A stretch of DNA of 64,000 nucleotides from Polyangium fumosum. Its GTDB lineage: Bacteria; Myxococcota_A; Polyangia; Polyangiales; Polyangiaceae. Below are positions 3,355 to 61,245 of this stretch, piece by piece (the first letter of the stretch is position 1; each line of letters opens with the position of its first letter). Location of the stretch: assembly GCF_005144585.1 (NCBI RefSeq), contig NZ_SSMQ01000004.1:186001-250000 (forward strand), given 5' to 3'. The notes beneath the pieces were generated by a model that saw only the letters and a list, made by a program, of their open reading frames with translations, did not search any database and was not told the DNA's origin. The position numbers and the translations under genes were made by a program.

Positions 3355-3393
3355 GCAACGTCTCCCTCGGTCCGGAGCTTCTTCCCCGGGACT

Positions 3394-4071: not shown

Positions 4072-4106
4072 GCGCTCCCCATGATCTCAAAAGCCGCGCG
4101 CTTCAT

Positions 4107-5465: not shown

Positions 5466-5503
5466 ATCGCCCGGTCAGTCTTATCAGAACTCGCCGCGCG
5501 GCC

Positions 5504-6193
5504 CTAGGGGGCCGGGGCGGCGGCCTTCGGCGGAGCGTTGCCGCCCGACGCCTTGGGGAGGTTGACCCTGCGGACCGATGTCGCGTTCGGGAACATCGAT
5601 TCGTCGAATTCGCTGCCGTTGTCGATCTTCGTGGACTCGACGAAGAAGGCAGTCTTGGGGTCGGCCTGCGCACCGGCGTCGCTCTCGCGGCCGCCGCACT
5701 GGGCCTCGCCTGGCATCAAAGGAAACGCGTAGAACGTCTTCCAGCTCTGCCCCTTGGGGCTGTGGAAGAGCGCGACGCCTCCGAGCGTGCTCGCCTCCTT
5801 CGCACGCTCGAACTTCACCTCCACGAGATCGTTCGGGAAAACGCTGACTTCGTCCATCTTGACGATGTCGTCGGCGAGGACCTCCTTGTCGGAGAGGAGG
5901 ACCTCGTCGTACGTCGCGTTCTGCATCCGCATCTCGTCCTTGAGCTGATACAGCCGGATGACGACGGGGCGCGGGTTCTGGTTCTCGTTCGGGTTGATGT
6001 TGTCCGCGGCGTAGATGCGAAGCGTGACGATCTGGACGTCACACGGCTTCGGCGCGGCAGGTGGCGGCGCGGATCCGCAGCCGATCGCAAACGAGGAGAG
6101 CACGCCAAGCCCGAGCCCGAGGAAGGAGAGAGAGGCAAGGGCCAGGGCCGCGCGCTTGCGTTTCCAGGAGGTGGTGGACGCTGAGGCCGCCAT
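5504..6193 (-). CDS. tssJ: Type VI secretion outer-membrane lipoprotein TssJ
   Basis: This 229-residue lipoprotein anchors the T6SS membrane complex to the outer membrane. A basic N-terminus and a hydrophobic stretch lead to a lipobox (FAIGCGS) with the lipidated Cys at residue 39. The mature part begins with Ala/Pro-rich linker residues and then the TssJ/VasD beta-sandwich pattern (VTLRIYAADNINPN, PVVIRLYQLK and a later VFPNDLVEVKFERAKEA segment). It is the first gene of the tssJKLM transcription group. A strong terminator lies between it and tssH at 6265-6297, so it may have its own promoter in the roughly 70 bp before the start. Confidence 0.93.
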   Translation of the reverse strand: MAASASTTSWKRKRAALALASLSFLGLGLGVLSSFAIGCGSAPPPAAPKPCDVQIVTLRIYAADNINPNENQNPRPVVIRLYQLKDEMRMQNATYDEVLLSDKEVLADDIVKMDEVSVFPNDLVEVKFERAKEASTLGGVALFHSPKGQSWKTFYAFPLMPGEAQCGGRESDAGAQADPKTAFFVESTKIDNGSEFDESMFPNATSVRRVNLPKASGGNAPPKAAAPAP

Positions 6194-6264
6194 GGCCCTC
6201 CTTTTTATCGGAAGGTGCGGCGAGTGGCCTAGCTTTTTGCCGAAAGCGTCGGCCCAAAAACCAA

Positions 6265-6297
6265 AAGGCCCCCCTCGCCAAGCGCGAGGGGGGCCTT
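6265..6297 (-). terminator. Rho-independent terminator after tssH
   Basis: A perfect 14-bp GC-rich stem (6265-6278 pairs with 6284-6297) encloses a 5-nt loop. Read on the minus strand, it is followed at once by TTTTGG and TTTTT runs. It lies about 24 bp after the tssH stop and before tssJ, so it should end or attenuate the transglycosylase-tssH transcript. Confidence 0.85.
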
Positions 6298-6320
6298 GAC
6301 CCCGAGCGGGTCTTCCCCGG

Positions 6321-8993
6321 TCACTCCGGGAACGTCGCCGTGAAGTTCTTCTGATCGTCGATGTCGATGACGAGCTTCTTGGGCATCACGCCCTCGGCCA
6401 TCCTCGTGAGGATCTCCTGCGACAACATCGGCAGGAGCGTCGCGCGCAGGATGTGGTCGATATTGCGGGCGCCCGTGTCGACCTCGGTGCACCGGCTCGC
6501 GATGAGATCGACCATGCGGTCCGTGTACGTCGCCTCGATGCGCTGGCTCTTTTTCAAGCGATCGACGAGCGCGTTCAGCTTGAGGCGCGTGATCTCGCCG
6601 AGGGCCGAGGGCGAGATCGGCACGTACGGCACGACGGTCATACGCGCGAGCAGCGCGGGCTTGAAGTGCGCGGACAGGGTCGGCTTGATCTCCTCGTAGA
6701 TCTCGCGGATCACCGGCTCGCGTTTCTCTTCCCACGCGCTGACCACGTGGTTCGTGATCTTGTCCGTGGCGAGGTTGCTCGTCATGATGATGACCGTGTT
6801 CTTGAAGTCGACGAGCAGGCCCGTACCGTCCGTGAGCGCGCCCTTGTCGAACACCTGGTAGAACAGGTTCATCACGTCCGGATCCGCCTTCTCGCACTCG
6901 TCGAGGAGGACGACCGTGTACGGCCTCTGGCGCACGCCCTCGGTCAGCATGCCGCCCTCGCCGTAGCCGACGTAGCCGGGCGGCGAGCCGATGAGCCGGG
7001 AGGTCGTGTGTTTCTCCTGGAACTCGGACATGTTGATCGTGACCATCATGCGCTCGCCGCCGAAGAGCATGTCGGCGAGGGCGAGGGCCGTCTCCGTCTT
7101 GCCGACGCCGGACGGGCCGACGAAGAGGAAGACGCCCATCGGCGTGCTTTGCGGCTTGAGACCCGCGCGCGCGGCTCGGAGCTCCTTCGCCACCGTCTCG
7201 AGGGCGTAGCCCTGGCCCTTGATGCGCGCGTTGAGGCGCGACTCCATCTCGACGAGCGCCCGGACGCTGTCCCCGACCATCTTGCCGACGGGGATGCCCG
7301 TCCAGGCGCTGACGACGGCCGCGACCATCGCCTCGTCGACGTCGGGCCGGATCAGCGGCACCTCGCCCTGGCTCTTGTGCAGCTCGTCGATGGCCGCCAC
7401 GACCTCCTTGCGGATGGCGTCACGTTCCTCGTCCGACTTCGCCTCGTTCATGCGCTTGCGCGCCTCGAGCACCTTCTTCGCGCCCGCGGACTCGTTGTCG
7501 TAGGCGACGCGCGTGTTCTCGAGCTCCACCTTCGACTTCGCGATCTTCTCCGTGAGCTGCTCGATCCGCTCCTCCTCCTGGAGGCGGATGCCGGCGGCGC
7601 GATCACGCGTCAGCGCGGCGAGCTCCGACGAAAGCGTCTCGATGCGGACCTCGATGTCCTCGACCTGCGCGGGCTTCTGCTGGAGTGCGATTTTCACGCG
7701 CGCCGAACACGTATCGAGGAGATCGACCGCCTTGTCCGGCAGCAGGCGGCCCGAAATGTAGCGGGCCGAGAGCTTCACGGCCGCCACGACCGCCTCGTCC
7801 GAGACGATGACGTTGTGCGCCTCCTCGAACTTGGGGCGCAGGCCGCGGAGCATCGTGATCGCCACGGCCTCGCTCGGCTCGTCCACCTTCACGGGCTGGA
7901 AACGCCGCGCGAGCGCCGCGTCCTTCTCGAAGTACTTCTTGTACTCGGCCCAGGTCGTGGCCGCGATCGTGCGCAGCTCGCCGCGCGCGAGGGCAGGCTT
8001 CAGGAGGTTCGCCGCGTCGCCCGCGCCCTGCTGGTTGCCGGCGCCGATGATCGTGTGCGCCTCGTCGATGAAGAGGATGATCGGCTTCGGCGAGCCCTTG
8101 ATCTCCGAGATGACCTGCTTCATCCGGTTCTCGAACTCGCCCTTCACGCCCGCGCCGGCCTGGAGGAGGCCGAGATCGAGGCCCATGATCTCGACGCCCT
8201 GCATGAGCGGCGGGACCTGGTTGTTCACGATCATGAGCGCCATGCCCTCGACGAGGGCCGTCTTGCCGACGCCGCTGTCGCCGACGATGATCGGGTTGTT
8301 CTTCCGGCGACGACCGAGGATGTCGATCATCTGCCGGATCTCGCCCTCACGGCCGAAAATCGGGTCGATCTGGCCGGCGCGCGCGCGACCCGTGTAGTCC
8401 ACGCAGTACTTCGCCAGCGCCGAATCCGCCGACGCGCTCGCCGCGCCCTGCGGCAGCCCGCCGGGGCCCGCCGCACCGCCCGTCGCACCCGCGCCGCCGC
8501 CCGGGGCCGTCTCCGCGTCTTCCTTCGAACCCGAGATGATCTTGGGGAGGTTGTTCTTGACGTCCTCGCGGGAGATGCCTTCGAGCAGCGAGCCGATGCC
8601 GCTCATCGAGTAGCGCGTCGGCTGGTTGACGAGCCGCGCGAAGAGCGCGCCGCTGCGCACCTTCGTGTAGCCGTACTCCATCGACCCGACGACGAACGCG
8701 TCCTGCATCCACTCGAGCATCGTCGGGGAGAAGACAGGCTTGCCGGCGTTGCCCGTGCGCAAATCCGAGAGGCTCCTCTGCAGGGCCTGCCGCAGACGCG
8801 CGGGATCCAGGTCGTAGTGCATCACGATGAACGCGATGTCGGAGTTCGCGTCGTCGAGGAGCGAGAGCAGCAAGTGCTCGACCGTCACCTCGTAATGCCT
8901 GGCATTGACGCATTGGACGACCGCCGCCTCGAGCGCAGCGGTGCAGACTTTGGTGAGCCGCTTGATGATGGATTTGGCTTCGACGAGCATCAT
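6321..8993 (-). CDS. tssH: Type VI secretion AAA+ ATPase TssH (ClpV)
   Basis: This 890-residue ClpB/ClpV-type double AAA+ unfoldase takes contracted T6SS sheaths apart for re-use. An N-terminal Clp-N repeat region (about 1-150) is followed by a Gly/Ala-rich linker (about 160-190). The first AAA domain has Walker A GDSGVGKT at 238-245 and Walker B LFIDEAH near 307-313. A short coiled middle domain lies near 445-545. The second AAA domain has Walker A GPSGVGKT at 626-633. The short middle domain and the T6SS neighbours favour ClpV over the heat-shock disaggregase ClpB. It starts 35 bp after the transglycosylase gene. Confidence 0.94.
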   Translation of the reverse strand: MMLVEAKSIIKRLTKVCTAALEAAVVQCVNARHYEVTVEHLLLSLLDDANSDIAFIVMHYDLDPARLRQALQRSLSDLRTGNAGKPVFSPTMLEWMQDAFVVGSMEYGYTKVRSGALFARLVNQPTRYSMSGIGSLLEGISREDVKNNLPKIISGSKEDAETAPGGGAGATGGAAGPGGLPQGAASASADSALAKYCVDYTGRARAGQIDPIFGREGEIRQMIDILGRRRKNNPIIVGDSGVGKTALVEGMALMIVNNQVPPLMQGVEIMGLDLGLLQAGAGVKGEFENRMKQVISEIKGSPKPIILFIDEAHTIIGAGNQQGAGDAANLLKPALARGELRTIAATTWAEYKKYFEKDAALARRFQPVKVDEPSEAVAITMLRGLRPKFEEAHNVIVSDEAVVAAVKLSARYISGRLLPDKAVDLLDTCSARVKIALQQKPAQVEDIEVRIETLSSELAALTRDRAAGIRLQEEERIEQLTEKIAKSKVELENTRVAYDNESAGAKKVLEARKRMNEAKSDEERDAIRKEVVAAIDELHKSQGEVPLIRPDVDEAMVAAVVSAWTGIPVGKMVGDSVRALVEMESRLNARIKGQGYALETVAKELRAARAGLKPQSTPMGVFLFVGPSGVGKTETALALADMLFGGERMMVTINMSEFQEKHTTSRLIGSPPGYVGYGEGGMLTEGVRQRPYTVVLLDECEKADPDVMNLFYQVFDKGALTDGTGLLVDFKNTVIIMTSNLATDKITNHVVSAWEEKREPVIREIYEEIKPTLSAHFKPALLARMTVVPYVPISPSALGEITRLKLNALVDRLKKSQRIEATYTDRMVDLIASRCTEVDTGARNIDHILRATLLPMLSQEILTRMAEGVMPKKLVIDIDDQKNFTATFPE

Positions 8994-9028
8994 GGCCCGG
9001 GCATCCTACAAGGACCCCGGGCCCGACG

Positions 9029-10879
9029 TCACCCGCGCGATCGGCTCCGGGAGCCTTTCTTTCCTTCGCTGCGACCCTTTTGCGCGTCCGTCTTCTCGGT
9101 ACCGCGCGCTGCGTCGGAAGGACCCTTGTCCTTATCCTTGGTCGCGCTCGCGTTCGCGTGGGTCCCGGGATCGATGATGCGACGCTGCACCTCCTCGGCC
9201 TTGGCGCCCGCCTCACCTCCCTCGGCTGCGCCGAGATCGAGCGCACCGAGCACGCCGGGCTTGACGCGGAGCCTCAAAATGGATCCTGCGCGGAGTTTGT
9301 CCTCTTCGCCGAGGCGGTTTTCCCGCGCCACGTCTTCCACATCCATCGCGAATTGGCGCGCGACGCCGATGAGCGTGTCGCCCGGACCGACCTTGTAAAG
9401 CAACGTCTTGCGACCCTCGCGCTTCTTGCGCGGCCGGAACGGCTCCTCGTCGCCCTCGTCGTCGTCCGCCGCGGAGCCGACGCCCGCCTGCGCCGCCAGC
9501 TCCTCGACCGGATCCCGCAGCGCGCGCCGCTTCTTGTACGAAGGCAGGAGCGAGAGCAGGCTGTCGTTGTCGCGCGTCGCCGCGCGACGCCGCACGAAAT
9601 CACGGCCGCCGATGAGATCGACCGGATCGAGCACGGCCGCATCCTCGGTCACGATGGGCTCGGTCTGCAGGAGGATGGGCAGCATCGTGTGCGCGCGCGA
9701 CAGCGACTCGGGCGGCACGTTCACGAGGAAATCGCCCCGCCCCGGCGGCAGCCTGTCGCCGAGCAGATCCGGATTGAGCTGCCGCACCGTCTTCAGCGGC
9801 ACGCCCGCGGCCTTCGCCAGGGTCTTGAGCGACAAACCGGGCGGCGCCGCGATCTCGGCGGCGTCGACGGGACGCACGAGCTCGACCTGATCGAACCCGA
9901 ACCGCTCGAGGTTGTTCGCGACGAGCGCCGCTGCGGCGATCTTCGGGACGTACGACGCCGTCTCACTCGGCAGCGCTTCTTGCCGCGCGAGCTCGTTGAA
10001 GTCGGCCGTGCCGTACCGATCGATCCGATCGAGGAGCTGCTCGTAGCCCATGTTGTAGGCCGCGAGCGCGAGATCCCAGTTGCCGAAGCGCATGTAGAGG
10101 TCGCGCAGGTGGTGCGCGGCCGCGCGCGTCGCGAGCCTCGGGTTTTTCCTCTGGTCGACGTGCTTGTTCTGCTCGAGCCCGTATACCGCGCCCGTCGCCG
10201 GCATGAACTGCCAGAGACCCATCGCGCCCGCCGGCGACTTCACCCGCGCGTCGAACCCGCTCTCGATCATCGCGACCCAGATCAGATCCTCGGGCAAACG
10301 CCACTCGCGGAGCTCGCCCTGGATGAGGTCCTGATACCGGCCGCTGCGCTTCAGCCAGGTCTCGAACATCCCGCGGCCCCGATCGGTCCGCGTGAAGAAG
10401 CGGACGTACTTCAACGTGCGCCGCGTGATCGCCACCTTCAGATCCGGGAGCTGCATCCGCGACAGCGCTTCGGTGCCCGCCATGTCGAGATCGTCGACCT
10501 CGGCCCCCTCCCCCGCCGCCGCGTCCGAGTTGAGCCGCGGCGGCCGCGAGTACATCGGCCGATCGAGCGAGGACTGCTCGCCTCGCATCGCCTCCCGCAT
10601 CTCGACCTCGCGCAGCCTGCCGAGCTGCGAAGACTCCGGTCCGCCCATCCGCGCCGCCGTGACGCCGCCCCGCAGAGGCTCCCCTCGCAGAGGCGCCCGC
10701 GAAGGATCCACGACGAGCGGCGCCGTTGCGGCCTCGAGACGAGGCGCCCCCGACGTCGGCGCGACCGCCACCACGGCAGCCTGGACCGGCGCGAGCGCCG
10801 CGTCCGGCGCGCTCATCCCCACGCCGTACCCAAACGCAAGGGCCGAAACGAGGGGCGGAATCTTGTGGAGGAGACTCAT
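9029..10879 (-). CDS. MltD-like lytic transglycosylase with SLT and LysM domains, T6SS-linked
   Basis: This 616-residue protein is predicted to cut peptidoglycan between MurNAc and GlcNAc. A hydrophobic N-terminal segment (about 8-30) looks like a signal peptide or anchor. The SLT domain spans about 195-325, with the catalytic Glu206 in the AMIESGFD motif, the GAMGLWQFMP motif at 218-227 and an AAYNMGYE motif near 273-280. One LysM domain lies near 494-540 (YKVGPGDTLIGVARQF), then a disordered charged tail. The gene is the first of the leftward T6SS block and ends 35 bp before tssH. The inference is that it opens the cell wall for the TssJLM complex, as dedicated wall hydrolases do in other T6SSs. 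Confidence 0.9.
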   Translation of the reverse strand: MSLLHKIPPLVSALAFGYGVGMSAPDAALAPVQAAVVAVAPTSGAPRLEAATAPLVVDPSRAPLRGEPLRGGVTAARMGGPESSQLGRLREVEMREAMRGEQSSLDRPMYSRPPRLNSDAAAGEGAEVDDLDMAGTEALSRMQLPDLKVAITRRTLKYVRFFTRTDRGRGMFETWLKRSGRYQDLIQGELREWRLPEDLIWVAMIESGFDARVKSPAGAMGLWQFMPATGAVYGLEQNKHVDQRKNPRLATRAAAHHLRDLYMRFGNWDLALAAYNMGYEQLLDRIDRYGTADFNELARQEALPSETASYVPKIAAAALVANNLERFGFDQVELVRPVDAAEIAAPPGLSLKTLAKAAGVPLKTVRQLNPDLLGDRLPPGRGDFLVNVPPESLSRAHTMLPILLQTEPIVTEDAAVLDPVDLIGGRDFVRRRAATRDNDSLLSLLPSYKKRRALRDPVEELAAQAGVGSAADDDEGDEEPFRPRKKREGRKTLLYKVGPGDTLIGVARQFAMDVEDVARENRLGEEDKLRAGSILRLRVKPGVLGALDLGAAEGGEAGAKAEEVQRRIIDPGTHANASATKDKDKGPSDAARGTEKTDAQKGRSEGKKGSRSRSRG

Positions 10880-11057
10880 GTCGGTCAGGGTCGCATGATG
10901 TAGGCAAAGGTGTCAAAAAACCGGTTCGCCGCCCCGGGAGGCCCGCGAACGGCGCGACGCACCCGGCGGAGAGGGCGCCCGCGGGATCGGAAGAGGCTTC
11001 GTGGGATCGTCGCCCGCTACTTCTGGTCCCGGGACACTGTCTGCTAGTCTCGCACCC

Positions 11058-12368
11058 ATGCCGCTGGCGCTCGTGGCCCGGGTCATCGATACCCAGGCCA
11101 ATCAAAGCTTCGACGTTACATTCGAGCGCTTCCCCATCCGCATCGGCAGAAACCAGCTCAACGACCTGCACATCGATCGGCCGTACGTCTCGCAGTTCCA
11201 CCTGGCCATCGACGTCCGCGACCGGCAGATCATCGTCAAGGATCTCGGCTCGACGAACGGCACCGTCTTCGCGGGCCGGCGCCTCACGCGCGACACGCCG
11301 ACGGACGTCACGAGCACGCCGGAGCTGACGATCGGCCCGATCGTGATGCGGATGCAGCTCATCGACGCGGCGCCGAAGAAACGTGAAGCCCCGAAAGACG
11401 GGACCGTCCTCGACTTCGCCCAGGAGCAATCCGGCAACGCCGCCGCGTCGTGGAGGCAGCAGCAGAAGCCGATCACGCCCGGCGCCGAGGACGGCTACGT
11501 GCGGCAGGTCCAGCCCTACGTGGAGGCCTACCGCGCGGCCTGGGGCGGCGTCTACCGCGTGATCTACGATCACCTCCCGCGGCTCTCGCCCGAGGTGCGC
11601 CAGAACTACCTGAAGCGCATCGCGATGGAGCAGCCGACGATCGCGGCCGAACAGGACTTCCAGAAGCTCTCGCAGTACTACGGCGTCGATCCGCGCATGC
11701 TCGGCGAGCCGAGCCCCGCGCAGGCCGCGCACGCCGCGATGATCGAGCTCTCGCGCACGCTCGCGCCGGGCTCGAAGCCGATCGAGGACGTCGAGAGCGT
11801 GCTGACGTTCGGCCGCAAGCTCCGCGACGCGATGGAGGTCTTCCTCAAGTGCTTCGTGAGCCTGCGGAACGGCTACCAGGAGTTCGAGGCCGAGATGCTC
11901 GCGCGCGAGGTCACGCCGGACGAGAACGACCGCGTGGCCTCCGCGAAGGACGAGAAGGAGCTCGGCAACGTGCTGCTCGGCCCGCAGAGCGGCCCGGACG
12001 CGCCGCGGCAGCTCCAGGACATCTTCGTCGACGTGATGAGCCACCAGGTCGCGCTCATCAACGGCGTGATGGAAGGCGTGCGCTCGCTCCTCACAAAGCT
12101 CTCCCCGAAAACGATCGAGGAGGAGCTCGAGCGACGCGGCAAGCGGGGCGGGTTATTCTCGAACAAATTCGAAGCTCTCTGGAAGCTCTACGAGGTCGTC
12201 CACGGCGACTACGCTGGAGAACAGAAAGAGACCTTCCTGATTATTTTTGGCCCGCAGTTCTCGCGCGCGTACGCTGCGACCGCCGGGGATGACGAGAAAA
12301 CCACCGGTGACGCGGGTGCGAAGAACCGTAGCCGCTTCACCCTCTCGGCGAACCAGATCAAACGATGA
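11058..12368 (+). CDS. T6SS-associated FHA-domain protein (TagH/Fha-like)
   Basis: An N-terminal forkhead-associated domain (about residues 1-100) carries the phosphothreonine-binding pattern IGRNQLNDL near 29-37, the S-x-x-H segment SQFH, and STNGT. The C-terminal half is helical and ends with a segment (KLYEVVHGDYAG...FLIIFGPQFSRAYAA) that resembles the C-terminus of TagH-type T6SS FHA proteins. Such proteins switch T6SS assembly on when a Ser/Thr kinase phosphorylates a target. I chose the ATG at 11058 because it begins directly before the FHA fold; an in-frame start at 11001 would add 19 unlikely residues. The gene is divergent from the transglycosylase gene. No kinase or phosphatase gene is adjacent; the nearest kinase is at 34,416. 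Confidence 0.82.
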   Translation: MPLALVARVIDTQANQSFDVTFERFPIRIGRNQLNDLHIDRPYVSQFHLAIDVRDRQIIVKDLGSTNGTVFAGRRLTRDTPTDVTSTPELTIGPIVMRMQLIDAAPKKREAPKDGTVLDFAQEQSGNAAASWRQQQKPITPGAEDGYVRQVQPYVEAYRAAWGGVYRVIYDHLPRLSPEVRQNYLKRIAMEQPTIAAEQDFQKLSQYYGVDPRMLGEPSPAQAAHAAMIELSRTLAPGSKPIEDVESVLTFGRKLRDAMEVFLKCFVSLRNGYQEFEAEMLAREVTPDENDRVASAKDEKELGNVLLGPQSGPDAPRQLQDIFVDVMSHQVALINGVMEGVRSLLTKLSPKTIEEELERRGKRGGLFSNKFEALWKLYEVVHGDYAGEQKETFLIIFGPQFSRAYAATAGDDEKTTGDAGAKNRSRFTLSANQIKR

Positions 12369-12415
12369 GCCGCGCCCGCCACGGGCGGCGCGCGGATGAC
12401 GGAAGGCTCATCCGA

Positions 12416-13135
12416 ATGCGTATCAGGGAGATCGTTCTGGCCACGTTGGGCCTCGTCTCAGCCTCCTTCGCCTACTCCACGGAGGCATCCGCCCAGACCG
12501 TCCCGGCCATCGCCCCTCGCGATGAGACGTGGGGCACGGTGAGCCACGTCATGCTTGGCGTCGGCGCTGGCACGGTCTTTCTCATGCCGCGCGTGTACTA
12601 CAGCGACCCGGAGTCGACGGTCGGCTGGAAGGGACGCTGGCACTTCTCGATGTTTGCCCCGGCGATGACGATGGCCGCCGCGACGTTCCTCGTCGACGGC
12701 CCCATCCGCAACGCCCTCCAGTATCCGCGCCCCGGCTGCACCGTGGATCAGACGCTCGTCGCGAACACGGACTCGGGCTGCGAGACGTTCGGCGGGCCCT
12801 CGACGCACGCCTTCGCCTCGTGGGGCGCGACGGGCGTGGGCACGGGCATCTTCCTCGTGGACACGATCAAGTTCTCGAAGGGCCGCTTCAACGCGGGCTC
12901 GTTCATCGGGAACATCGGCGTCCCGCTCGTGGCCTCGATCCTCACCTCGGTCGGCCGCGGCGTCGAGTCGCCCGCCGTCGACGAGTTCGGCACGCAGACC
13001 CTGCCCTACGAGACCTCGAACCAGATCATCGCCGGCACGTTCGCGGGCTTCTTCACCGGCCTGCTCGTCGGTGGCGCGTACGCGCTCCTCCAGCGCCCCT
13101 CCTGCGGCTACGGCAACGCGATCTTCTGCTGGTGA
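12416..13135 (+). CDS. PAP2-like exported or membrane protein, degenerate third motif
   Basis: This protein of about 239 residues has a Sec signal peptide (MRIREIVLATLG to a cut near ASAQ) and several hydrophobic segments. It keeps two of the three PAP2 phosphatase motifs: R-x6-R-P at residues 98-106 and PSTH at 128-131 (usually PSGH). The third motif S-R-x5-H-x3-D is not intact; the expected His position near 187 is Ala. It may therefore be an inactive relative or act differently. An earlier in-frame ATG at 12365 overlaps the stop of the FHA gene as ATGA, which suggests translational coupling. I prefer the internal ATG at 12416 because the signal peptide begins there. A link to the T6SS envelope steps is inference. 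Confidence 0.6.
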   Translation: MRIREIVLATLGLVSASFAYSTEASAQTVPAIAPRDETWGTVSHVMLGVGAGTVFLMPRVYYSDPESTVGWKGRWHFSMFAPAMTMAAATFLVDGPIRNALQYPRPGCTVDQTLVANTDSGCETFGGPSTHAFASWGATGVGTGIFLVDTIKFSKGRFNAGSFIGNIGVPLVASILTSVGRGVESPAVDEFGTQTLPYETSNQIIAGTFAGFFTGLLVGGAYALLQRPSCGYGNAIFCW

Positions 13136-13142
13136 AAGAAGC

Positions 13143-13181
13143 AGGACGTTGGTGCTCCAACCTTCGGAGCACCAACGTCCT
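13143..13181 (+). terminator. Strong hairpin after the PAP2-like gene
   Basis: A perfect 16-bp stem (13143-13158 with 13166-13181) encloses a 7-nt loop, 8 bp after the stop codon. No T-run follows, so it is either a terminator working through the hairpin alone or an mRNA 3'-end stabiliser. Confidence 0.7.
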
Positions 13182-13264
13182 CGGCTTCGCCGCTACCCGA
13201 CCCAGCGAACCAGCGGCACCTACGCCGGGTAGTCCCGAACGAAGTGAAGCGGAGTGAGGGACGT

Positions 13265-13292
13265 AGGGTGCGGCCCATCGAGGCCGCACCCT
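13265..13292 (-). terminator. Hairpin after the lipoprotein gene at 13298
   Basis: A perfect 11-bp GC-rich stem (13265-13275 with 13282-13292) and a 6-nt loop lie 6 bp after the stop of the leftward lipoprotein gene, between converging genes. Confidence 0.6.
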
Positions 13293-13297
13293 CTTGA

Positions 13298-14245
13298 TCA
13301 GTCCTGGCCGACGACGCGCTCCCAGAGCGGATCGTTCGAGGAGAAGAGCGCGTCGCGCTCCACCTTGAGGAAACGCGAGAACTCGACCTTGCGGAGCGCG
13401 CGGTCGCTGTCCCGGTTCGGATCCTCGTAGTGGATGATGCTCACCTTCACCTGCTCGAGGAGCTGGATCCCGTTCGGCTTGTAGCTGACGTCCGTTCGAA
13501 GCTGATACCGCGCGTAGAGCCCGCGCTCGGTGACCGACGGGAGCACCTGCACGCGCTCGATGTCGACCTTCGCCGCCTCGATCAAACGACCGCGGCGCGC
13601 GAGGAACATGTGCGCTTGTTTGCGACAGTCGTCCGGATCGGGGCAACGCTTCGCCTCCGCCACGACGAGGTTGTCGTCGCCGAGACGAACCGGCGAGATC
13701 TGCGACTTCGCCGGCCCGCGGAAGCTGCCGATCGCGTAGATCTCGGCGCGATCGTCGACCGCGCGCGCAAGAAGGATCGGCCCGCCTTCGTCGCCGTTTT
13801 CGAACTTGAGCACGCGGTACCAGAGCGTGCGCAGGCCGTTCGGGCCGGAGCGGACGTCGACCTCCTCCACGTCGAGCTTGCGCGGCCAGCCCTTCTCCGA
13901 GATGCCCCCGCGGAGCGACTCGTTCGCGAAGGCGTAGTGGCCCGTGCAGTCGACGTCCGTCGGGTTCAACCCCTTGTCCGCGTTGAACCCGGGGAACGCG
14001 ATCTCGGCCCACTGATCGGGCTCGAGCGTGCGCACCACGGCCTTGCCGCGGCCCCCGCGCAGCGGGGAGAGCTTCTGCGTGCAAACCGCGATCGGCGTCT
14101 GCTCGCGGGTCCTGGCCTCGAGGTGCGGCTGCTCGGGCGCGGCGCCGCAGCCCATCGTGGAGGCGAGACCGATCGCCAGGGCGGCGAGGCTCCCGCGACG
14201 TGCCGTTTTCGCTTGGTTCCGGCGGTCTTGAAGAGACGGCTTCAC
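13298..14245 (-). CDS. Putative lipoprotein of unknown function inside the T6SS locus
   Basis: I do not recognise a family. The 315-residue product has a basic N-terminus, a hydrophobic stretch and a lipobox (LASTMGCGA) with Cys33, so lipidation in the periplasm or outer membrane is likely. The mature region is soluble and mixed alpha/beta, with several Cys residues (near 55, 100 and 201-208) that could form disulfides. It stands alone on the minus strand between the FHA/PAP2 pair and tssEFG, with its own hairpin terminator. Its position suggests a T6SS accessory role, but nothing in the sequence proves this. Confidence 0.75.
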   Translation of the reverse strand: MKPSLQDRRNQAKTARRGSLAALAIGLASTMGCGAAPEQPHLEARTREQTPIAVCTQKLSPLRGGRGKAVVRTLEPDQWAEIAFPGFNADKGLNPTDVDCTGHYAFANESLRGGISEKGWPRKLDVEEVDVRSGPNGLRTLWYRVLKFENGDEGGPILLARAVDDRAEIYAIGSFRGPAKSQISPVRLGDDNLVVAEAKRCPDPDDCRKQAHMFLARRGRLIEAAKVDIERVQVLPSVTERGLYARYQLRTDVSYKPNGIQLLEQVKVSIIHYEDPNRDSDRALRKVEFSRFLKVERDALFSSNDPLWERVVGQD

Positions 14246-14453
14246 GCCTCATTTCGTATCACGCAAGGCGCCTGCCACGAAAATTCCCTGTGGCCCTCCC
14301 TCGCACGATCCGTCGCCCCGAACTCCGACAACGCCCCCGCATGCGGACGACGGGTGACCTTTGATACAATGCGGGCGATCCCCTGCGAGACGGGAGAGCG
14401 CGGCCGGGGTTTGGGGGCTTCTGGTCGAGCGGGGCGAGGGGTAGAATGCTCCC

Positions 14454-14870
14454 ATGGCTGCCTCCCTGCTCACGCGCATCGCCCATGCGGCCAACCCGCA
14501 CTCGATGGAGAGGCATACGTGGAAGGATCAGGATCTCGAGCAGGCGGTGATCACGCACCTCGCGCGGATGCTGAACACGCGGCAGGGCAGCTCGCTCACC
14601 TGCCCCGATTATGGGCTGATCGAGGTGTCGGAGATGCTGCACGATTTCCCCGACGCGGTCGGGATTGTGCAGCGCGCCATCAAGAACAGCATTCAGCAGT
14701 ACGAGCCGCGCCTGAAGAACGTGCAGGTCCGGCACATCAAGAACGAGGTCATGGGGACCATGTACCTCGAGTTCGAGATCACGGGGCAGCTCCATTACCC
14801 GGACGGACGCCGTTCGGGGCTGCGGTTCAGCACCTCGGTGGATCAGAGCGGCAACGTCAAGGTCGGTTGA
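14454..14870 (+). CDS. tssE: Type VI secretion baseplate subunit TssE
   Basis: This 138-residue protein belongs to the gp25-like family that starts sheath polymerisation on the baseplate. It shows the family pattern of an early leader, a segment LARMLNTRQGSSLTCPDYGL near 36-55, and the conserved YEPRLKNV motif near 83-90. Its size fits TssE (about 130-170 residues). It opens the rightward tssEFG block and is followed by tssF after 80 bp. A purine-rich GAGGGG stretch precedes the ATG. Confidence 0.93.
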   Translation: MAASLLTRIAHAANPHSMERHTWKDQDLEQAVITHLARMLNTRQGSSLTCPDYGLIEVSEMLHDFPDAVGIVQRAIKNSIQQYEPRLKNVQVRHIKNEVMGTMYLEFEITGQLHYPDGRRSGLRFSTSVDQSGNVKVG

Positions 14871-14950
14871 TCGGTTCGCGGAAGCGCGGACCTCTTCACG
14901 ATCGTTGACACTGCCTCTCTGGAACGGTCGACTGTTCGGCGTCGGGCCTC

Positions 14951-16720
14951 ATGTTCAACAAGTACTACCAGGACGAGCTTTCCTACCTGCGCGAGCTCGG
15001 GCGCGAGTTCGCGCAGGCGTACCCCGCGATCGCGCCGATGCTCGCGGAGCGCGGGGCAGATCCGGACGTCGAGCGGCTGCTCGAAGGCGTCGCGTTCCTC
15101 ACGGGGAAGATCCGGCAAAAGCTCGATGATGAGCTGCCCGAGGTCATCCACTCGGTCGCGTCGCTGCTCTTCCCGCACTACCTGCGGCAGATCCCGGCGA
15201 CGTCGATCGTGGAGTTCACGCCGCTGCCGAACGTGGTGCGCGAGAAGCTCATCGTCGCGCGGCACGCCGAGGTCGGCTCGGTGCCCGTCGACGGCGTTTC
15301 GTGCCGGTTCCGCACCACGCAAGACGTGGAGCTCTTGCCGCTCACGGTGGAGGACGTGCGCGTCGAGACCGGCGCGCAGCTCGCGCAGTCGCTCCGGATC
15401 GAGGTGAAGGTGACGGGCGGCGCGGCGCTCGCGGCGCTCGCGCTCTCGAAGATCCGCTTCTACATCCACGGCGAGCGGAGGCTCCAGGACGACGTCCGCG
15501 TCTGGCTCGGCGCGCACGTCGACTCCATCGCGCTCTGCGCGGTCGACGGCGCGGGCCGCGACACGACGCTCGCGACCTTGCCCGCGCGCAACGTAAAACT
15601 CGTCGGGTTCGAAGAGGACGAGGCGCTGATCCCCTACCCGCCCACGGTCTACGGGGGCTTCCGGCTCTTGCAGGAGTACTTCACGCTCCCGCAGAAGTTC
15701 GCGTTCTTCGAGATCCAGGGACTCGAAGCGATGCCGGCGGACAAACTCTCCGACCGGTTCGCGATCCTGATCCAGTTCAAGGACGGGTTGCCCGCGGGGA
15801 CACGCCTCTCGAAAGAGAACTTCCGGCTCTTCTGCTCGCCGGTCGTGAACCTCTTCGAGCACTCGAGTGATCCCATCAAGCCCGATCCAAGCAAGTACGA
15901 GTACCTCGCGCGCCCCGCCGGCTCGACGCCCGTCGCGTACGAGCTCTACAGCATCGAGAGCGTGATCGGCATCGCGCGGCGCACGAGCCAGCGCGTGAAG
16001 ATCCCGCCGTTCTTCTCGTTCGAGCACGAGCTCGATCCGGAAGCATCGGCGCGCGGCGTCTTCTACCAGACGCACATCAAGCCCGCGTCGATCGGCGACG
16101 GCGTCGACATCTACGTCTCGTTCGGCTCGGCGCAGGATGGCGCGTCGATCCCGGAGTTCGACGTCATCAGCATCGAGGCGACGTGCACGAACCGGCGTTT
16201 GCCCGCGCAGCTCAAGGTCGGCGATCTGCGTGTGCCGACGGCGACGTCGCCCGCGGTCGCGAGCTTCACGAACGTCACGGGCGTGACCGCGCCCTTGCCT
16301 CCGCCGATGGGCCGCGAGCTGCAGTGGCGCGTGCTCTCGCACATGGCGATGAGTTATCGATCGATCACGGAGCTCGACGTGTTGCGATCGGTCCTCGAAA
16401 TCTACAACTTCCCCGCGCTCATCGATCGTCAGGCGGCGCGGGCAAACCAGCTCCGCATGCAGGCGATCAAGTCGATCCGCGTCCGCCCCACGGATCGGCT
16501 TTACCGCGGCGCGCCCGTGCGCGGCGTGGCGACGGAGGTCGAGCTCGACGAAGGGGGCTTCGCGGGTGAAGGCGAGATGTATCTCTTCGCGAGCATCCTG
16601 AACGAGATGCTCGCGGCGTACGTCTCGCTCAACTCCTTCACGCAGCTCAGCGTCACCGGCACCAATACGCGCGTGGTTTATCGATGGGAGCCGAAGAGCG
16701 GCAGCCTCAACCTGATCTGA
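14951..16720 (+). CDS. tssF: Type VI secretion baseplate subunit TssF
   Basis: This 589-residue protein fits TssF/VasA/ImpG in length. It begins with the typical FNKYYQDELSYLRELGREFA leader, then a PAIAPMLAERGADPDVERLL stretch that is highly characteristic of the family. A segment LLFPHYLRQIPA lies near residues 72-83. TssF, with two copies of TssG, forms the wedge that surrounds the VgrG hub. Its end overlaps the start of tssG by 37 bp, so the two are translated together. Confidence 0.95.
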   Translation: MFNKYYQDELSYLRELGREFAQAYPAIAPMLAERGADPDVERLLEGVAFLTGKIRQKLDDELPEVIHSVASLLFPHYLRQIPATSIVEFTPLPNVVREKLIVARHAEVGSVPVDGVSCRFRTTQDVELLPLTVEDVRVETGAQLAQSLRIEVKVTGGAALAALALSKIRFYIHGERRLQDDVRVWLGAHVDSIALCAVDGAGRDTTLATLPARNVKLVGFEEDEALIPYPPTVYGGFRLLQEYFTLPQKFAFFEIQGLEAMPADKLSDRFAILIQFKDGLPAGTRLSKENFRLFCSPVVNLFEHSSDPIKPDPSKYEYLARPAGSTPVAYELYSIESVIGIARRTSQRVKIPPFFSFEHELDPEASARGVFYQTHIKPASIGDGVDIYVSFGSAQDGASIPEFDVISIEATCTNRRLPAQLKVGDLRVPTATSPAVASFTNVTGVTAPLPPPMGRELQWRVLSHMAMSYRSITELDVLRSVLEIYNFPALIDRQAARANQLRMQAIKSIRVRPTDRLYRGAPVRGVATEVELDEGGFAGEGEMYLFASILNEMLAAYVSLNSFTQLSVTGTNTRVVYRWEPKSGSLNLI

Positions 16721-17853
16721 GCGGCGGGCCGAACCCCGACGCCGCGTTCGCGCCGTCGCTCGATCCCGAGCGGCAGGCGAAGGCGATGATCTCGGCCAAG
16801 ATGGCCGAACTCGAGCACAGCGCGCGGCGCTACTCGTTTTTCCGGCTCGTCTACATCCTCGAGCGCCTCTTCCCGGGCAGCGCGCCCGTCGGCCAGCTCG
16901 GGCCCGTGGCGACGGAGCGCATCCGCCTGCGCGGGGACACGAGCCTGATCTTCGCTTCGACGGACGTGAGCGAGCTCAAGTCCACGAAGTACCCCGACGA
17001 GATCGATCGCGCGCGCATCACGGCGGGCTTCATGGGCCTCTACGGCTCGGTCTCGCCGCTGCCGACGTACTACGTCGAGGAGCTCGCGCAGGACGACTAC
17101 CAGGGCGGTCCGCAGCCGAAGCGCGAGTTCCTCGACGTCTTCAACCATCGCCTGCTCTCGCTGTTTTACCGGGCGTTCACGAAGTACCGGCACTCGGTCG
17201 GCTACCGGAAGAAGGGCGACGATCCCTTCACGCGGCGCCTGCTCTGCGCGGCGGGCATCGATGGATTCCGCGAGCACAAGAGCCCGCTGCACCGGTTCCT
17301 CTACCTGCGTTACGCGCCCCTGCTCGCGACGAAGTCCCGAAGCGCGCGCGGGCTCGAGGTCGTGCTGAAGGACATCTTCGGCAGCATGGGCGTGGACATC
17401 GAGCAGTTCGTCGGACACTGGACGCTGCTCGAGAAGCCGCTGCGCAACAAGATGGGCGTGGCGAACCATCAGCTCGGCGAGAGCCTGACCATCGGCCGAT
17501 GGGTCTACGACGGGACGGGGCGCTTCAAGATCAAGCTCGGGCCGCTGAAGTACGACGAGTACATCTCGTTCTTGCCGGGCGGCTCGAACCGCGCGGTGCT
17601 CAAGGCGGCGGTCGACACGCTGACGCGCGGCGCGTGTGACGCGATGCTGGAGCTGCACGTGGCGACGGAGGACGCGCCGCGCTTCCAGCTCGCGTCCCCG
17701 CGCGCATCCACGCTCGCGCGCACGACGTGGCTCGGCGGCCCCGTGGGGCAGAACTTCGTGATCGAAGTCCCCCTCAACGACAAACCGCAGCGCACGGGCC
17801 AGGGCGACGAAGAAGAAGAAGAGCGTCTCGACCCGCCGCCTCTTCCCTACTAG
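16684..17853 (+). CDS. tssG: Type VI secretion baseplate subunit TssG
   Basis: This 389-residue baseplate wedge protein shows the TssG/ImpH pattern YSFFRLVYILERLFPG near residues 50-65. Further family signs are a GFMGLYGSVSPLPTYYVEE segment near 116-134, FLDVFNHRLLSLFYRA near 151-166 and a central QFVGHWTLLE region. A proline/acidic tail ends the protein. It overlaps tssF by 37 bp and is followed directly by a hairpin terminator that includes its stop codon. Confidence 0.94.
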   Translation: MGAEERQPQPDLSGGPNPDAAFAPSLDPERQAKAMISAKMAELEHSARRYSFFRLVYILERLFPGSAPVGQLGPVATERIRLRGDTSLIFASTDVSELKSTKYPDEIDRARITAGFMGLYGSVSPLPTYYVEELAQDDYQGGPQPKREFLDVFNHRLLSLFYRAFTKYRHSVGYRKKGDDPFTRRLLCAAGIDGFREHKSPLHRFLYLRYAPLLATKSRSARGLEVVLKDIFGSMGVDIEQFVGHWTLLEKPLRNKMGVANHQLGESLTIGRWVYDGTGRFKIKLGPLKYDEYISFLPGGSNRAVLKAAVDTLTRGACDAMLELHVATEDAPRFQLASPRASTLARTTWLGGPVGQNFVIEVPLNDKPQRTGQGDEEEEERLDPPPLPY

Positions 17854-26046: not shown

Positions 26047-26979
26047 TCAAGCGCCGAGGATCATGCCCTTCGTGAGGGCACGACCGGCGACGAGCTCCTG
26101 CGCGGACAGAGGCTTCCGTCCTTCGAGTTGCCCGCGCACGAGCGTGATCGAGCCTGCGCCGCACGCGACCTCCACGCCCCCTTTGTCTGCGGCCGTGACG
26201 GTGCCGGGCGCGCCGCGCACACCTTGTTCGAGGGCCACGCGCGTGGCGAGCACCTTCAGCCCTTTGCCTGCGCACGTCGTGAACGCGCCGGGCCACGAGG
26301 TCATGCCGCGGACGTGATCGTGCACGGCGCGTGCGGGCTTCGACCAATCGATGCGGCCGTGCTCCTTCTCCAGCATCGGCGCCATCGTGGCCGCCGCGTG
26401 ATCCTGCGGCGCCGCGACGAGGTCCCCGGAGACCGCGCGCAAAAGATCTTCGCGCACGACCTGCGCCGCGAGCGCGCCGAGCTCGACGTACAGCTCGTCG
26501 GCGGTCGTGTCCTCGCCGATCGGGATCCGGTGCGTGGTGTACACGGGGCCCGTATCCATGCCCTCGTCCATCTGCATGAGGCAGACGCCCGTCTCGCGCT
26601 CGCCGTTCACGATGGCCCAGGTGATCGGGGCTGCGCCGCGGTACTTGGGCAGGATCGAGGCGTGCAGGTTCATGCAGCCGCGGCGAGGCGCGTCGAGTAC
26701 GGCCTTCGGCAAGATGCGGCCGTACGCGATGACGAGCGCGACGTCGGCGTTCGTTTCGGCGATGAGGCGCGCGAAGTCCGGTGTCTTGACCTTGAGTGGT
26801 TGCTCGACGCGCAGGCCGAGCTCGAGGGCGCGCTGCTTGACGGGCGGCGCGCGCAGCTCGAGGCCGCGGCCGGCCGGGCGATCGGGCTGGCAAACGACGA
26901 GCGGGATCTCAGCGATCGCGTGGAGCGCATCGAGCGCAGGGACGGAGATGGCGGGGGTGCCGAAGAAGAGGGCGCGCAC
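26047..26979 (-). CDS. fmt: Methionyl-tRNA formyltransferase
   Basis: The enzyme formylates Met-tRNA(fMet) with 10-formyl-tetrahydrofolate to start translation. The 310-residue protein has the N-terminal FGTPAIS motif, the catalytic residues Asn104, His106 (NLHASILPKYRG segment) and Asp142 (MDTGP), and a C-terminal tRNA-binding domain. The GTG at 26977-26979 gives the usual family start RALFFGTP; an upstream in-frame ATG would overlap the Toprim gene by about 200 bp. The gene usually sits next to def (peptide deformylase). Here def is absent and the gene follows the ATPase-Toprim pair with a 17-bp gap. Confidence 0.96.
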   Translation of the reverse strand: MRALFFGTPAISVPALDALHAIAEIPLVVCQPDRPAGRGLELRAPPVKQRALELGLRVEQPLKVKTPDFARLIAETNADVALVIAYGRILPKAVLDAPRRGCMNLHASILPKYRGAAPITWAIVNGERETGVCLMQMDEGMDTGPVYTTHRIPIGEDTTADELYVELGALAAQVVREDLLRAVSGDLVAAPQDHAAATMAPMLEKEHGRIDWSKPARAVHDHVRGMTSWPGAFTTCAGKGLKVLATRVALEQGVRGAPGTVTAADKGGVEVACGAGSITLVRGQLEGRKPLSAQELVAGRALTKGMILGA

Positions 26980-26996: not shown

Positions 26997-27623
26997 TCAG
27001 AGGCGGCGGAGGAAGTCGATGAGGGGGTGGAACTCGGGACGGGAGAAATCGAACACGCGATCCCTCGCTCCAGGGCCCAGGCGAGGATCCTCGTCGCTGA
27101 GTACGGAAAGGAGCGCACCGATGCGTCCCTTGTCGGGACTCTTTGCCCGATGACCTTGGCCGTCCATGCAGGCGAGGTACGTCTCGACGCACCGCCTGGG
27201 CCCCGCATTCTCAGGGTCGTTCGCCCACGCTCGCCAGACGAGGGACTCGGCCTCGCCGGTGCTGCCGTCGCCCGAGACGACGAAGAGCCCGATGCGGGGT
27301 GGTCCTGCGGTCCACTGACCGTGACGGACGTCCTGCTTCGTGATCTTGTTCAGCGCCGTTTCGAGCGACTTGCATGTCCCAGAGAACGTCTCATCTGCAT
27401 CGACGACCACGCCGATGGATGCTTTCGCGGCGAGAAAATCCGGACGAAGGTACGTCTCAAGCTTGGCGATCACATCGCGCTTGCCGTTCATGGGCTTGAT
27501 GAAGGCCCAGTCGATGGGCCTTCCAATCCACTCGAGAACCTCGGCGTAGAACGGAAGATCACCCTTACCCTCGACGATCAGCACTCGGCTCGCCTTATTC
27601 TCGTCATGCATGTGATTGGCCAT
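26997..27623 (-). CDS. Small Toprim-like protein (DUF3226/DUF4435-like), partner of the ATPase
   Basis: This protein of about 208 residues has the Toprim core signs: a strand ending VLIVEGKGD with Glu18, and GVVVDADE with Asp75 and Asp77. This layout is known in DUF3226 and DUF4435 proteins, which bind metal and often cut nucleic acid. I chose the ATG at 27623 because the Toprim fold begins soon after it; the frame is open 24 residues further up, inside the ATPase gene. It starts 7 bp after the ATPase stop, so the two are one operon. A role in phage defence is inference from similar pairs (PARIS-like, OLD-like). Confidence 0.75.
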   Translation of the reverse strand: MANHMHDENKASRVLIVEGKGDLPFYAEVLEWIGRPIDWAFIKPMNGKRDVIAKLETYLRPDFLAAKASIGVVVDADETFSGTCKSLETALNKITKQDVRHGQWTAGPPRIGLFVVSGDGSTGEAESLVWRAWANDPENAGPRRCVETYLACMDGQGHRAKSPDKGRIGALLSVLSDEDPRLGPGARDRVFDFSRPEFHPLIDFLRRL

Positions 27624-27630
27624 CACGATC

Positions 27631-28581
27631 TCAACGAAGCTCGATCTCTGCGGCGATGGCCGCTTCGATGTGCTTGCGGTCGAGTGTGCGTCCATCGGCC
27701 ACGTCGCCCAGGCGATAGAGCTGGATCACGCGAAAGTCGTAGCTATCCCGCGCGGCGAAGCACTCGTGCGCAGCGACGAGACACTCGCGGGAGTGGGTCG
27801 TCGCGAAGACCTGGATGCCGAGGCGTTCGGAGACCTCGGCGATACCCTTCCAGACCGTGGGGAGCGCGGTGTAGTGGATGCCGTTCTCGATCTCGTCGAT
27901 GAAGCAGATGTCCGGCTTGCGACCGAGCAACTCGGAGAAGATCGCGACGAGGCGATAGATGCCCTGGCCAGCCTGCGAGAGGGGAATGCGCTCACGCAGG
28001 CCGACATCGACGACGATGAACGGCTTGGCAGCGACAGCATCGAGGCGCACCGAGCGAATACGCGAGTCCACAGCGCCGAGGAGGGATTCGAGCTGTTGCT
28101 CGTCTTCCGGTGCTCGTACAGCCTCGGCGAAGGCATCGACCATCGCATCGGGCACACGATGCTGGACGGAAACAGCGTGCACGCGAAGACGAAGAACCCC
28201 CGCCGTGCACCAACCGTACAGGGAATTGCCCCGGTAGAAGGAGTCGAGTTTGTCCCCTTCGCTGGACAAAAGCCGGTCCTTCCTTGCCACGAAGACACGC
28301 CTTCGCTTTTGTCCGGGCGACGTCACCCGGAGCACCGTCTCCACGTCAGCGCCATGCTTCGGGAGCCAATGGTAAAAGCGAGCGTCCGGTACTCCGCCCC
28401 CCGTTCGGAAGAGTCCGTGCAGATCCCCCATCGTGGCAGGGTCGGCGAGCACAGTGATCGCCTCCAGCAGCGACGTCTTCCCCGTGTTGTTCTTCCCGAC
28501 GACGAGGTTCACGCGGCCGAGATCGCTCAAGGCGAGCCGGGAGAACCCGCGAAACTGTTCGATCTCGATGGACTGGAACAT
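27631..28581 (-). CDS. SMC/OLD-type AAA ATPase (AAA_15/AAA_21-like)
   Basis: This 316-residue ABC/SMC-type ATPase has the RecF-like N-terminus FQSIEIEQFRGF, Walker A GKNNTGKT at 29-36, a degenerate signature LSQAGQG near 201-207, Walker B ICFIDEIENG at 225-234 and a His in TTHS at 261-264. The coil region between the lobes is short. Such ATPases act as sensors in OLD, Gabija and PARIS defence systems. The start is the ATG at 28579-28581; upstream frames are non-coding repeats. The next gene is the Toprim protein, 7 bp away. Confidence 0.85.
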   Translation of the reverse strand: MFQSIEIEQFRGFSRLALSDLGRVNLVVGKNNTGKTSLLEAITVLADPATMGDLHGLFRTGGGVPDARFYHWLPKHGADVETVLRVTSPGQKRRRVFVARKDRLLSSEGDKLDSFYRGNSLYGWCTAGVLRLRVHAVSVQHRVPDAMVDAFAEAVRAPEDEQQLESLLGAVDSRIRSVRLDAVAAKPFIVVDVGLRERIPLSQAGQGIYRLVAIFSELLGRKPDICFIDEIENGIHYTALPTVWKGIAEVSERLGIQVFATTHSRECLVAAHECFAARDSYDFRVIQLYRLGDVADGRTLDRKHIEAAIAAEIELR

Positions 28582-29169
28582 GCGCCTCGTCGTTCCTTGC
28601 CCGTTCACCCGCCCAGCGGCAAGCCCCGCGCCTGCCGAGCGCAACAAACGTCCTGACGAGCCTCCGCCCTCGTCGGACAAGAGCCGCGGAACACCCCTGC
28701 AAAACGCAGCGTACCGGCGCCCGACCGAGGGATCCCCGATGCAAACCCCCACGCGCCTCTGCAAGGTGTGTCTTGCACGCGTTGCAATCGAGGCTCCCCG
28801 CTCCGCAGACCACGTCTGCACGTGTGCAAACCGGTCCTCGCGGCTGCAAGGGGTCGGTTGCACGCGATGCAACCGGCATCCGCACACGACACGGAGGCGT
28901 TTGCACGCGCGTGAGCGCGGCCCATCGGTGTGCAAGGGGGTGCTTGCACGCGTTGAAACACGCGGTTCGAACGTCGCTGGCTGCTTTTCAACGCGTGCAA
29001 GCACCCCCTTGCACGTGGCTTCGGTCGATTTCCACGCACGCAGGCCCCCCCTCGCGCGCGGTTCCTTCGCTTTGCGTTCGGCGCAAGCGTGGCCGCGTCT
29101 CGGTCACGCGGCCGGGATCACGTGTGCAAACGGGAGTTGTGCAGGGGGAAAAAGAGAGGACGGCGTCGG
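28582..29169. other. 588-bp intergenic region with palindromic TGCAAG repeats
   Basis: No gene is supported. Reading frames on both strands show repeated CxxxQ-rich peptides that come from the DNA repeats, not from protein selection. The part near the ATPase (28582-28755) is plain. The part 28760-29014 holds the repeats listed separately. The rest, next to the aldehyde dehydrogenase stop, shows no further clear structure. Confidence 0.7.
28760..29014. repeat. 28-nt palindromic repeats at 85-86-nt spacing, last copy inverted
   Basis: Three direct copies of TGCAAG-N6-(C/G)TTGCACGCG-N-TG-N-AA start at 28760, 28845 and 28931. A fourth, inverted copy covers 28986-29013. Each copy holds its own TGCAAG...CTTGCA palindrome. 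Copies three and four form a perfect 29-bp inverted repeat (28930-28958 with 28986-29014) around a 27-nt loop. Confidence 0.85.
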
Positions 29170-59930: not shown

Positions 59931-59939
59931 GAGCTCGCC

Positions 59940-61229: not shown

Positions 61230-61245
61230 GGGGGAGCGAGGCGCG

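Follow-up and report, generated by a model that had tools for sequence, protein, structure and literature searches.

A candidate defence module in Polyangium that pairs an ABC-type ATPase with a DUF3226 Toprim protein

In the PARIS system, AriA forms an ABC ATPase hexamer that keeps AriB sequestered and, on sensing a phage protein, allows it to cleave tRNA (PMC12409363, PMC9122126). AbiLii is the toxic effector of AbiL, and pairs of AAA and TOPRIM_OLD proteins behave as toxin-antitoxin systems in neutralisation assays (PMC10440598). Beyond these described systems, PADLOC-DB 2.0 contains putative defence candidates (PDCs), which come from a guilt-by-embedding approach and are mostly without validation (PMC12988326). 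Here we analyse a gene pair that resembles several of these systems and was found in a 64,000-nucleotide stretch, referred to as the window, of a 13-Mb Polyangium genome.

On the minus strand, the gene for an ATPase is followed after 7 bp by a gene for a Toprim protein and, after a further 17 bp, by fmt (start 26979) (Table 1). A sequence-only reading of the same DNA had given both open reading frames, their strand, the 7-bp spacing and sizes of 316 and about 208 residues; these proved exact to the base, the frames encoding 316 and 208 amino acids. The intact Glu and D-x-D that it had reported in the Toprim protein are likewise present (E18 and D75-A-D77), and alignment of 55 relatives added D22, E126 and K165, which it had not mentioned, to the conserved residues. 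An alternative in-frame ATPase start lies further upstream at 29004; the start used in relatives corresponds to MFQSIEI. Considering that the proteins of other Polyangium genomes are 70-72% (ATPase) and 74% (Toprim) identical to those of the window, and that dN/dS in the Polyangium comparison is 0.2-0.3 for both genes, the pair is not a chance prediction of open reading frames.

Table 1. Features of the ATPase-Toprim pair and its downstream neighbour (window coordinates; fractions refer to 55 aligned members unless stated otherwise)
Feature	Position	Strand	Description
ATPase gene	27631..28581	-	316 aa; AAA_15/AAA_21; SMC/Rad50-type ABC head; relative of AbiLi and PDC-M38A
Walker A, GKNNTGKTS, residues 29-37	28471..28497	-	G29, N31, G34 and K35 invariant
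Walker B, ICFIDE, residues 225-230	27892..27909	-	D229 and E230 in 54/55; acidic in 55/55
H-loop histidine H263, within FATTHS	27793..27795	-	55/55
ATPase C-terminal tail E-L-R	27634..27642	-	[ED]-hydrophobic-R tail of the family
Gap from ATPase stop to Toprim start	27624..27630	-	7 bp
Toprim gene	26997..27623	-	Predicted nuclease; 208 aa; DUF3226 (PF11536); relative of PDC-M38B
Toprim motif 1 glutamate E18	27570..27572	-	E in 53/55
Toprim motif 2, D75-A-D77	27393..27401	-	D75 in 55/55; D77 acidic in 47/55
E126, GxxE motif	27246..27248	-	E in 54/55; candidate second-metal ligand, by comparison with OLD Toprims
Conserved lysine K165	27129..27131	-	K in 53/55; putative functional residue
fmt	26047..26979	-	Co-directional neighbour outside the module; present in 6/6 Polyangium genomes with or without the module

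The ATPase matches the Pfam families AAA_15 (72.7 bits) and AAA_21 (63.9 bits). Its structural model, which like that of the Toprim protein was built from a shallow alignment (4 and 5 sequences, comprising the window proteins and proteins from related loci), is a compact SMC/Rad50-type head with Z scores of 16-18 to SMC, Rad50 and PtuA heads (VIA-align). The short coil that had been attributed to this protein did not hold up, as the model predicts no real coiled coil and the middle part (about residues 48-135) is short and modelled with low confidence. Among PADLOC models, AbiLi matched the ATPase best (156.4 bits), followed by PDC-M38A (146.8 bits) and AriA in third place (77.5 bits), and a profile of the ATPase family matched solved structures of PtuA, retron PtuA, OLD, AriA and GajA. 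Walker A, Walker B and the H-loop are all kept across the 55 relatives, as is a C-terminal tail of the form [ED]-hydrophobic-Arg, in which the arginine aligns in 55/55 proteins and is the final residue in 48/55. We speculate that this tail might dock the Toprim protein.

For the Toprim protein, the sole Pfam match is DUF3226 (59.0 bits against a cut-off of 27), which covers residues 13-208 of 208. Hence, of the profiles that had been put forward for checking (AAA_15/AAA_21, DUF3226 and DUF4435), the first two types match and DUF4435 gives no Pfam match; the PADLOC model for AriB scored just 13 bits (E 0.02), and no model for AbiLii (RloB type) was among the PADLOC matches. Residues E18, D22, D75, D77, E126 and K165 are kept in an alignment of 55 pairs, as one would expect if the protein were a Toprim nuclease of the two-metal type; roles in metal binding are predicted on this basis.

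To describe the association of the two genes, we collected 59 DUF3226 matches with fetched genomic context. Two of these (L140 and L159) had appeared to be ATPase-DUF3226 fusions and were excluded, being single chains of OLD/GajA type that cross-match DUF3226 weakly, which left 57 loci. In 52 of them a complete Walker-A ATPase gene lies directly upstream on the same strand, mostly overlapping or a few bases apart. At four further loci (L121, L122, L132 and L155) the neighbour, truncated by the end of its contig or divergent and overlooked by the simple rule, still matches the ATPase profile, and the one remaining locus (L070) sits at the edge of a contig. The identities of the ATPases, compared pairwise across 55 pairs, correlate strongly with those of the Toprim proteins (Mantel r 0.75; reached in 0 of 2000 permutations, the highest permuted value being 0.11), so the partners have not been exchanged. 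These data indicate that DUF3226 and its upstream ATPase form a fixed, obligate pair. One locus (L058, 7987-11622) carries two different ATPase-DUF3226 pairs in tandem on one strand.

We also examined the neighbourhoods of the pair for defence genes, as the sequence-only reading had proposed, and found relatives that adjoin restriction-modification, Septu and TIR genes. At six of the 57 loci, all chromosomal, the pair lies within or beside restriction-modification genes; the other 51 have no restriction gene near it. The first of the six (L066, 2351-12346) has, on one strand, HsdM, HsdS, a CAP12-type TIR protein, an unknown 249-aa gene, the ATPase, DUF3226 and HsdR. The second (L063) runs from an AAA_13 protein through the ATPase, DUF3226 and two more genes to HsdR, and at the third (L062) the pair is flanked by a type IIG enzyme (18 bp) and Septu PtuA (16 bp). 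A close relative of the window copy (L149, identical to L032) has a type IIG enzyme 8 bp upstream, the fifth locus (L147) has an N6 methylase (N6_Mtase) gene directly upstream, and the last (L157) has HsdR_N 0.7 kb downstream. HsdR_N was observed four times in the fetched contexts against 0.38 expected (P 6e-4) when L159 was included, and three times against about 0.37 (P about 0.006) when it was left out; without L159, N6_Mtase gave a weaker excess (three against 0.79). The HsdR and methylase neighbours of L159 were left out of the linkage count. The 104 directly adjacent proteins matched PADLOC models for type I restriction enzyme, specificity and methylase, type IIG, Septu and HEC-02A; in a small set of 100 distant proteins a single type II enzyme matched and type I models were absent. 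Both tallies cover the 25 most frequent families, so that the counts are lower bounds. The link to restriction is therefore real and statistically significant but modest and confined to a minority of loci, as for RloC, of which 8 of 73 were in type I or III loci (PMC2610378).

The pair is patchily distributed. DUF3226 was present in 19 of 282 genomes of the window's own phylum, in 14 of 296 of the phylum of a Parabacteroides genome (G361) and in 17 of 288 of the phylum of a Verrucomicrobia genome (G360), or roughly 5-7% of the genomes sampled in every one of the three phyla. The nearest relatives outside Polyangium are verrucomicrobial (ATPase 55 and 47%, Toprim 41 and 37% identity), while other members from the window's own phylum in the same relatedness ranking reach 31% identity or less, a pattern that points to movement of the pair between phyla. 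The pair was found in 132 plasmid records, 126 of them from Klebsiella. Apart from the ATPase and DUF3226, a 4,119-bp Klebsiella plasmid encodes nothing but Rop and a helix-turn-helix protein; on a Salmonella plasmid of 3,793 bp the pair is accompanied by MobA and Rop, and 4,693-bp E. coli plasmids also bear it. The pair is thus almost the only cargo of 3.8- to 4.7-kb plasmids of Enterobacteriaceae, and on the 3.8- and 4.1-kb Col plasmids it is the sole cargo besides replication and mobilisation genes. No phage-borne copies turned up, either in 50,697 phage records or by a viral-contig scan. Matches of the Toprim profile to TAL effectors were an artefact of summed sub-threshold repeats. The scan of genomic DNA used the ATPase, the Toprim alignment having no stretch that was conserved enough.

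Paired inheritance, patchy spread, carriage on tiny plasmids and placement in restriction-enzyme operons make phage-triggered self-shutdown the most likely role. We put at roughly 70% the probability that the pair serves as an accessory abortive-infection module against phages, with the ATPase restraining and then triggering a two-metal Toprim nuclease; in its way of working it would resemble PARIS and AbiL while being a member of neither. With PARIS taken as the template, the AbiLi-like ATPase and the DUF3226 Toprim protein would fill the roles of AriA and AriB. The ATPase, an ABC head without a coiled coil, would form an ATP-bound oligomer that keeps the Toprim protein silent and senses infection, and on sensing would release or activate it. 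The Toprim protein would then act as a two-metal-ion nuclease through E18, D75/D77, E126 and K165 and cut nucleic acid of the host; RNA is the likeliest target, for example tRNA, which AriB cleaves, and DNA the second choice. Cleavage would arrest growth ahead of phage spread. The position of relatives within or next to restriction-modification operons hints at a possible trigger, namely some signal that restriction has been evaded or inactivated. A more specific version is possible but doubtful: that the pair is a third restriction-guard family beside PrrC and PARIS, in which the ABC ATPase silences the Toprim protein, the C-terminal tail docks it, the system fires when a phage blocks restriction, and Col-type plasmids spread it in Enterobacteriaceae.

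The Polyangium genomes provide a series of losses at a single site. The pair is intact in two of six genomes (G000 and G286), and the other four carry deletions. One (G284) keeps the ATPase intact and has an internal Toprim deletion (corresponding to window 27288-27568) that takes only the catalytic half of the protein, including the D-x-D. In two others (G282 and G285) just the last part of the Toprim gene remains (up to window positions 27044 and 27072, respectively), joined near 28730, and in the fourth (G283) the pair and the intergenic region are lost cleanly. The shared fmt site and the distinct deletion patterns indicate that the pair was probably present here in the ancestor and was lost in at least three separate events. 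These losses bear in both directions on an unlikely reading, that of toxin-antitoxin addiction, in which the Toprim protein would act as toxin and the ATPase as antitoxin, and the pair would secure the upkeep of its carrier DNA rather than defend against phage. In favour of addiction, one Polyangium relative lacks the catalytic half of the Toprim protein but retains the ATPase, the very small Col plasmids carry almost nothing else, and similar AAA and TOPRIM_OLD pairs are toxin-antitoxin systems in neutralisation assays (PMC10440598). However, the whole pair was deleted in at least three Polyangium genomes with no trouble for the lineage, deletion of either gene is non-toxic in PARIS (PMC9122126), and the restriction and Septu neighbours favour defence. 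Addiction and abortive infection also overlap, since Abi systems can be toxin-antitoxin systems.

Slightly less probable still is defence against plasmids or other mobile elements, or direct cutting of invading DNA in the manner of Gabija and OLD, instead of an abortive RNase. The AlphaFold model of the Toprim protein (pLDDT 82, pTM 0.80) is closest by structural alignment to PH0156 of Pyrococcus (Z 12.4), followed by the C-terminal regions of Burkholderia and Xanthomonas OLD (Z 9.4-10.0) and by TsOLD (Z 8.9). Besides PH0156, then, the closest solved Toprims are DNA-cutting OLD nucleases, in a comparison whose rows contained no AriB structure, and the ATPase resembles Rad50/SMC heads, which handle DNA ends. 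Against this, the Toprim protein is encoded separately, like the tRNA-cutting AriB of PARIS (PMC12409363), and a function directed at plasmids sits poorly with a pair that is itself plasmid-borne.

The surroundings of the window copy consist of lon, fmt and two aldehyde dehydrogenase frames, with type VI secretion genes further out, and no defence island was seen within the window. Another Polyangium strain, sp. 6x1 (L030), has an ATPase 72% identical to that of the window beside the same fmt. The G+C content of the module (62-63%) is below that of fmt (71%) and of the window as a whole (68%), consistent with a foreign origin. All six genomes contain fmt at 92-97% identity. Synonymous divergence between the window and G286 is 0.74 for the ATPase and 0.84 for the Toprim gene, while fmt and the flanking dehydrogenases show 0.19-0.28, about one third as much; the difference points to replacement of alleles, or to a quicker turnover while purifying selection acts. 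The sequence-only reading had held that a pair conserved beside fmt in all relatives and free of links to defence genes would argue against defence. The site is indeed shared within Polyangium, but the pair is eroded or deleted in four of the six genomes, and although the window copy lies outside any defence island, defence genes adjoin the pair outside the genus. The outcome is thus mixed and does not refute defence, and the proposal of a candidate defence module is partly supported: it is backed by the relatedness to AbiLi, AriA, PtuA and OLD and by the defence neighbours of relatives, but not by the immediate setting of the window copy. A housekeeping DNA-repair or cell-cycle factor tied to fmt, a role of the kind proposed for the archaeal OLD protein Cran1, which shows that OLD-type proteins need not serve defence (PMC12796447), would fit the single site within Polyangium but is very improbable and already largely refuted by the absent or broken pairs in four of six genomes, the 5-7% occurrence per phylum, the carriage on plasmids and the lack of an fmt neighbour at the loci inspected outside the genus.

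Other features of the window were also recorded. The interval between the ATPase and the dehydrogenase (28740-29014) holds degenerate repeats at about 43-nt spacing with the core TGCAAG-N6-CTTGCACGCGTTG and includes a perfect 29-nt inverted pair; elsewhere in the genome a single further array of this type was detected (C120:61712-61822), and the G282 and G285 deletion junctions coincide with the edge of the window array. The type VI secretion genes (1-17853 and 58086-62160) include IcmF/TssM, TssK (VasE), TssF and TssG, with a VgrG-PAAR-DUF4123 cassette at the opposite end of the window from the others. Directly after this cassette, in the position of type VI cargo, 62164-63555 encodes a 463-aa protein without a Pfam match.

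The family is common, being present in about 5-7% of the genomes sampled per phylum for three phyla, and it occurs on 3.8- to 4.7-kb plasmids of Klebsiella, E. coli and Salmonella. In the literature searched, we found no phage assay of the ATPase-DUF3226 family, no published test of PDC-M38 and no paper naming DUF3226 or PDC-M38. Through the pairing, the catalytic residues, the ATPase tail and the restriction linkage, what was a database entry now yields specific predictions that can be tested: which residues are needed for activity, which part binds and which triggers to try. The Polyangium series adds a probable defence module lost stepwise at one site.

Compared with known systems, the pair shares with PrrC and RloC the principle of an ATPase-regulated nuclease that may sit inside type I restriction loci (PMC2610378), but those nucleases are of another kind and fused to the ATPase, whereas here a separate Toprim protein is encoded. 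With OLD and GajA it shares an OLD-type Toprim fold with a helical C-terminal part (Z about 10), an ABC ATPase partner and, for OLD, the conserved E and DxD (Z 8.9-10 to OLD structures). Unlike OLD of classes 1-3, which is one chain, it consists of two frames separated by a stop and 7 bp, and unlike Gabija it has neither a GajB UvrD-like helicase nor any third module gene, its neighbours being fmt and aldehyde dehydrogenase. The likeness to AbiL lies in the ATPase, which is closest to AbiLi, and in the two-gene Abi design with a Toprim-type partner; AbiLii, however, is an RloB-type Toprim. As in PARIS, the ABC ATPase and the Toprim protein have separate genes (AriA and AriB there), and an anti-restriction link, known for PARIS, whose trigger is an anti-restriction protein such as Ocr, is suggested here by neighbouring genes. 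The difference from classic PARIS that had been anticipated was borne out: AriB carries DUF4435, and the ATPase has 316 residues compared with 464 for the solved AriA chain. Because the partner is DUF3226, we rejected membership of PARIS despite the AriA match (77.5 bits) and membership of AbiL despite the AbiLi-type ATPase. The pair is not new as a combination, since PADLOC already models an ATPase with DUF3226 as the putative candidate PDC-M38 (M38A and M38B), in which both components occur in the order seen here. Scores of 206-258 bits for standard DUF3226 proteins against M38B identify PDC-M38 with the ATPase-DUF3226 family. The adjacent Toprim protein of the window gives a weak match to M38B as judged by score and E-value (24.9 bits, E 3.6e-6), which makes the window copy a divergent representative of the kind already listed as PDC-M38.
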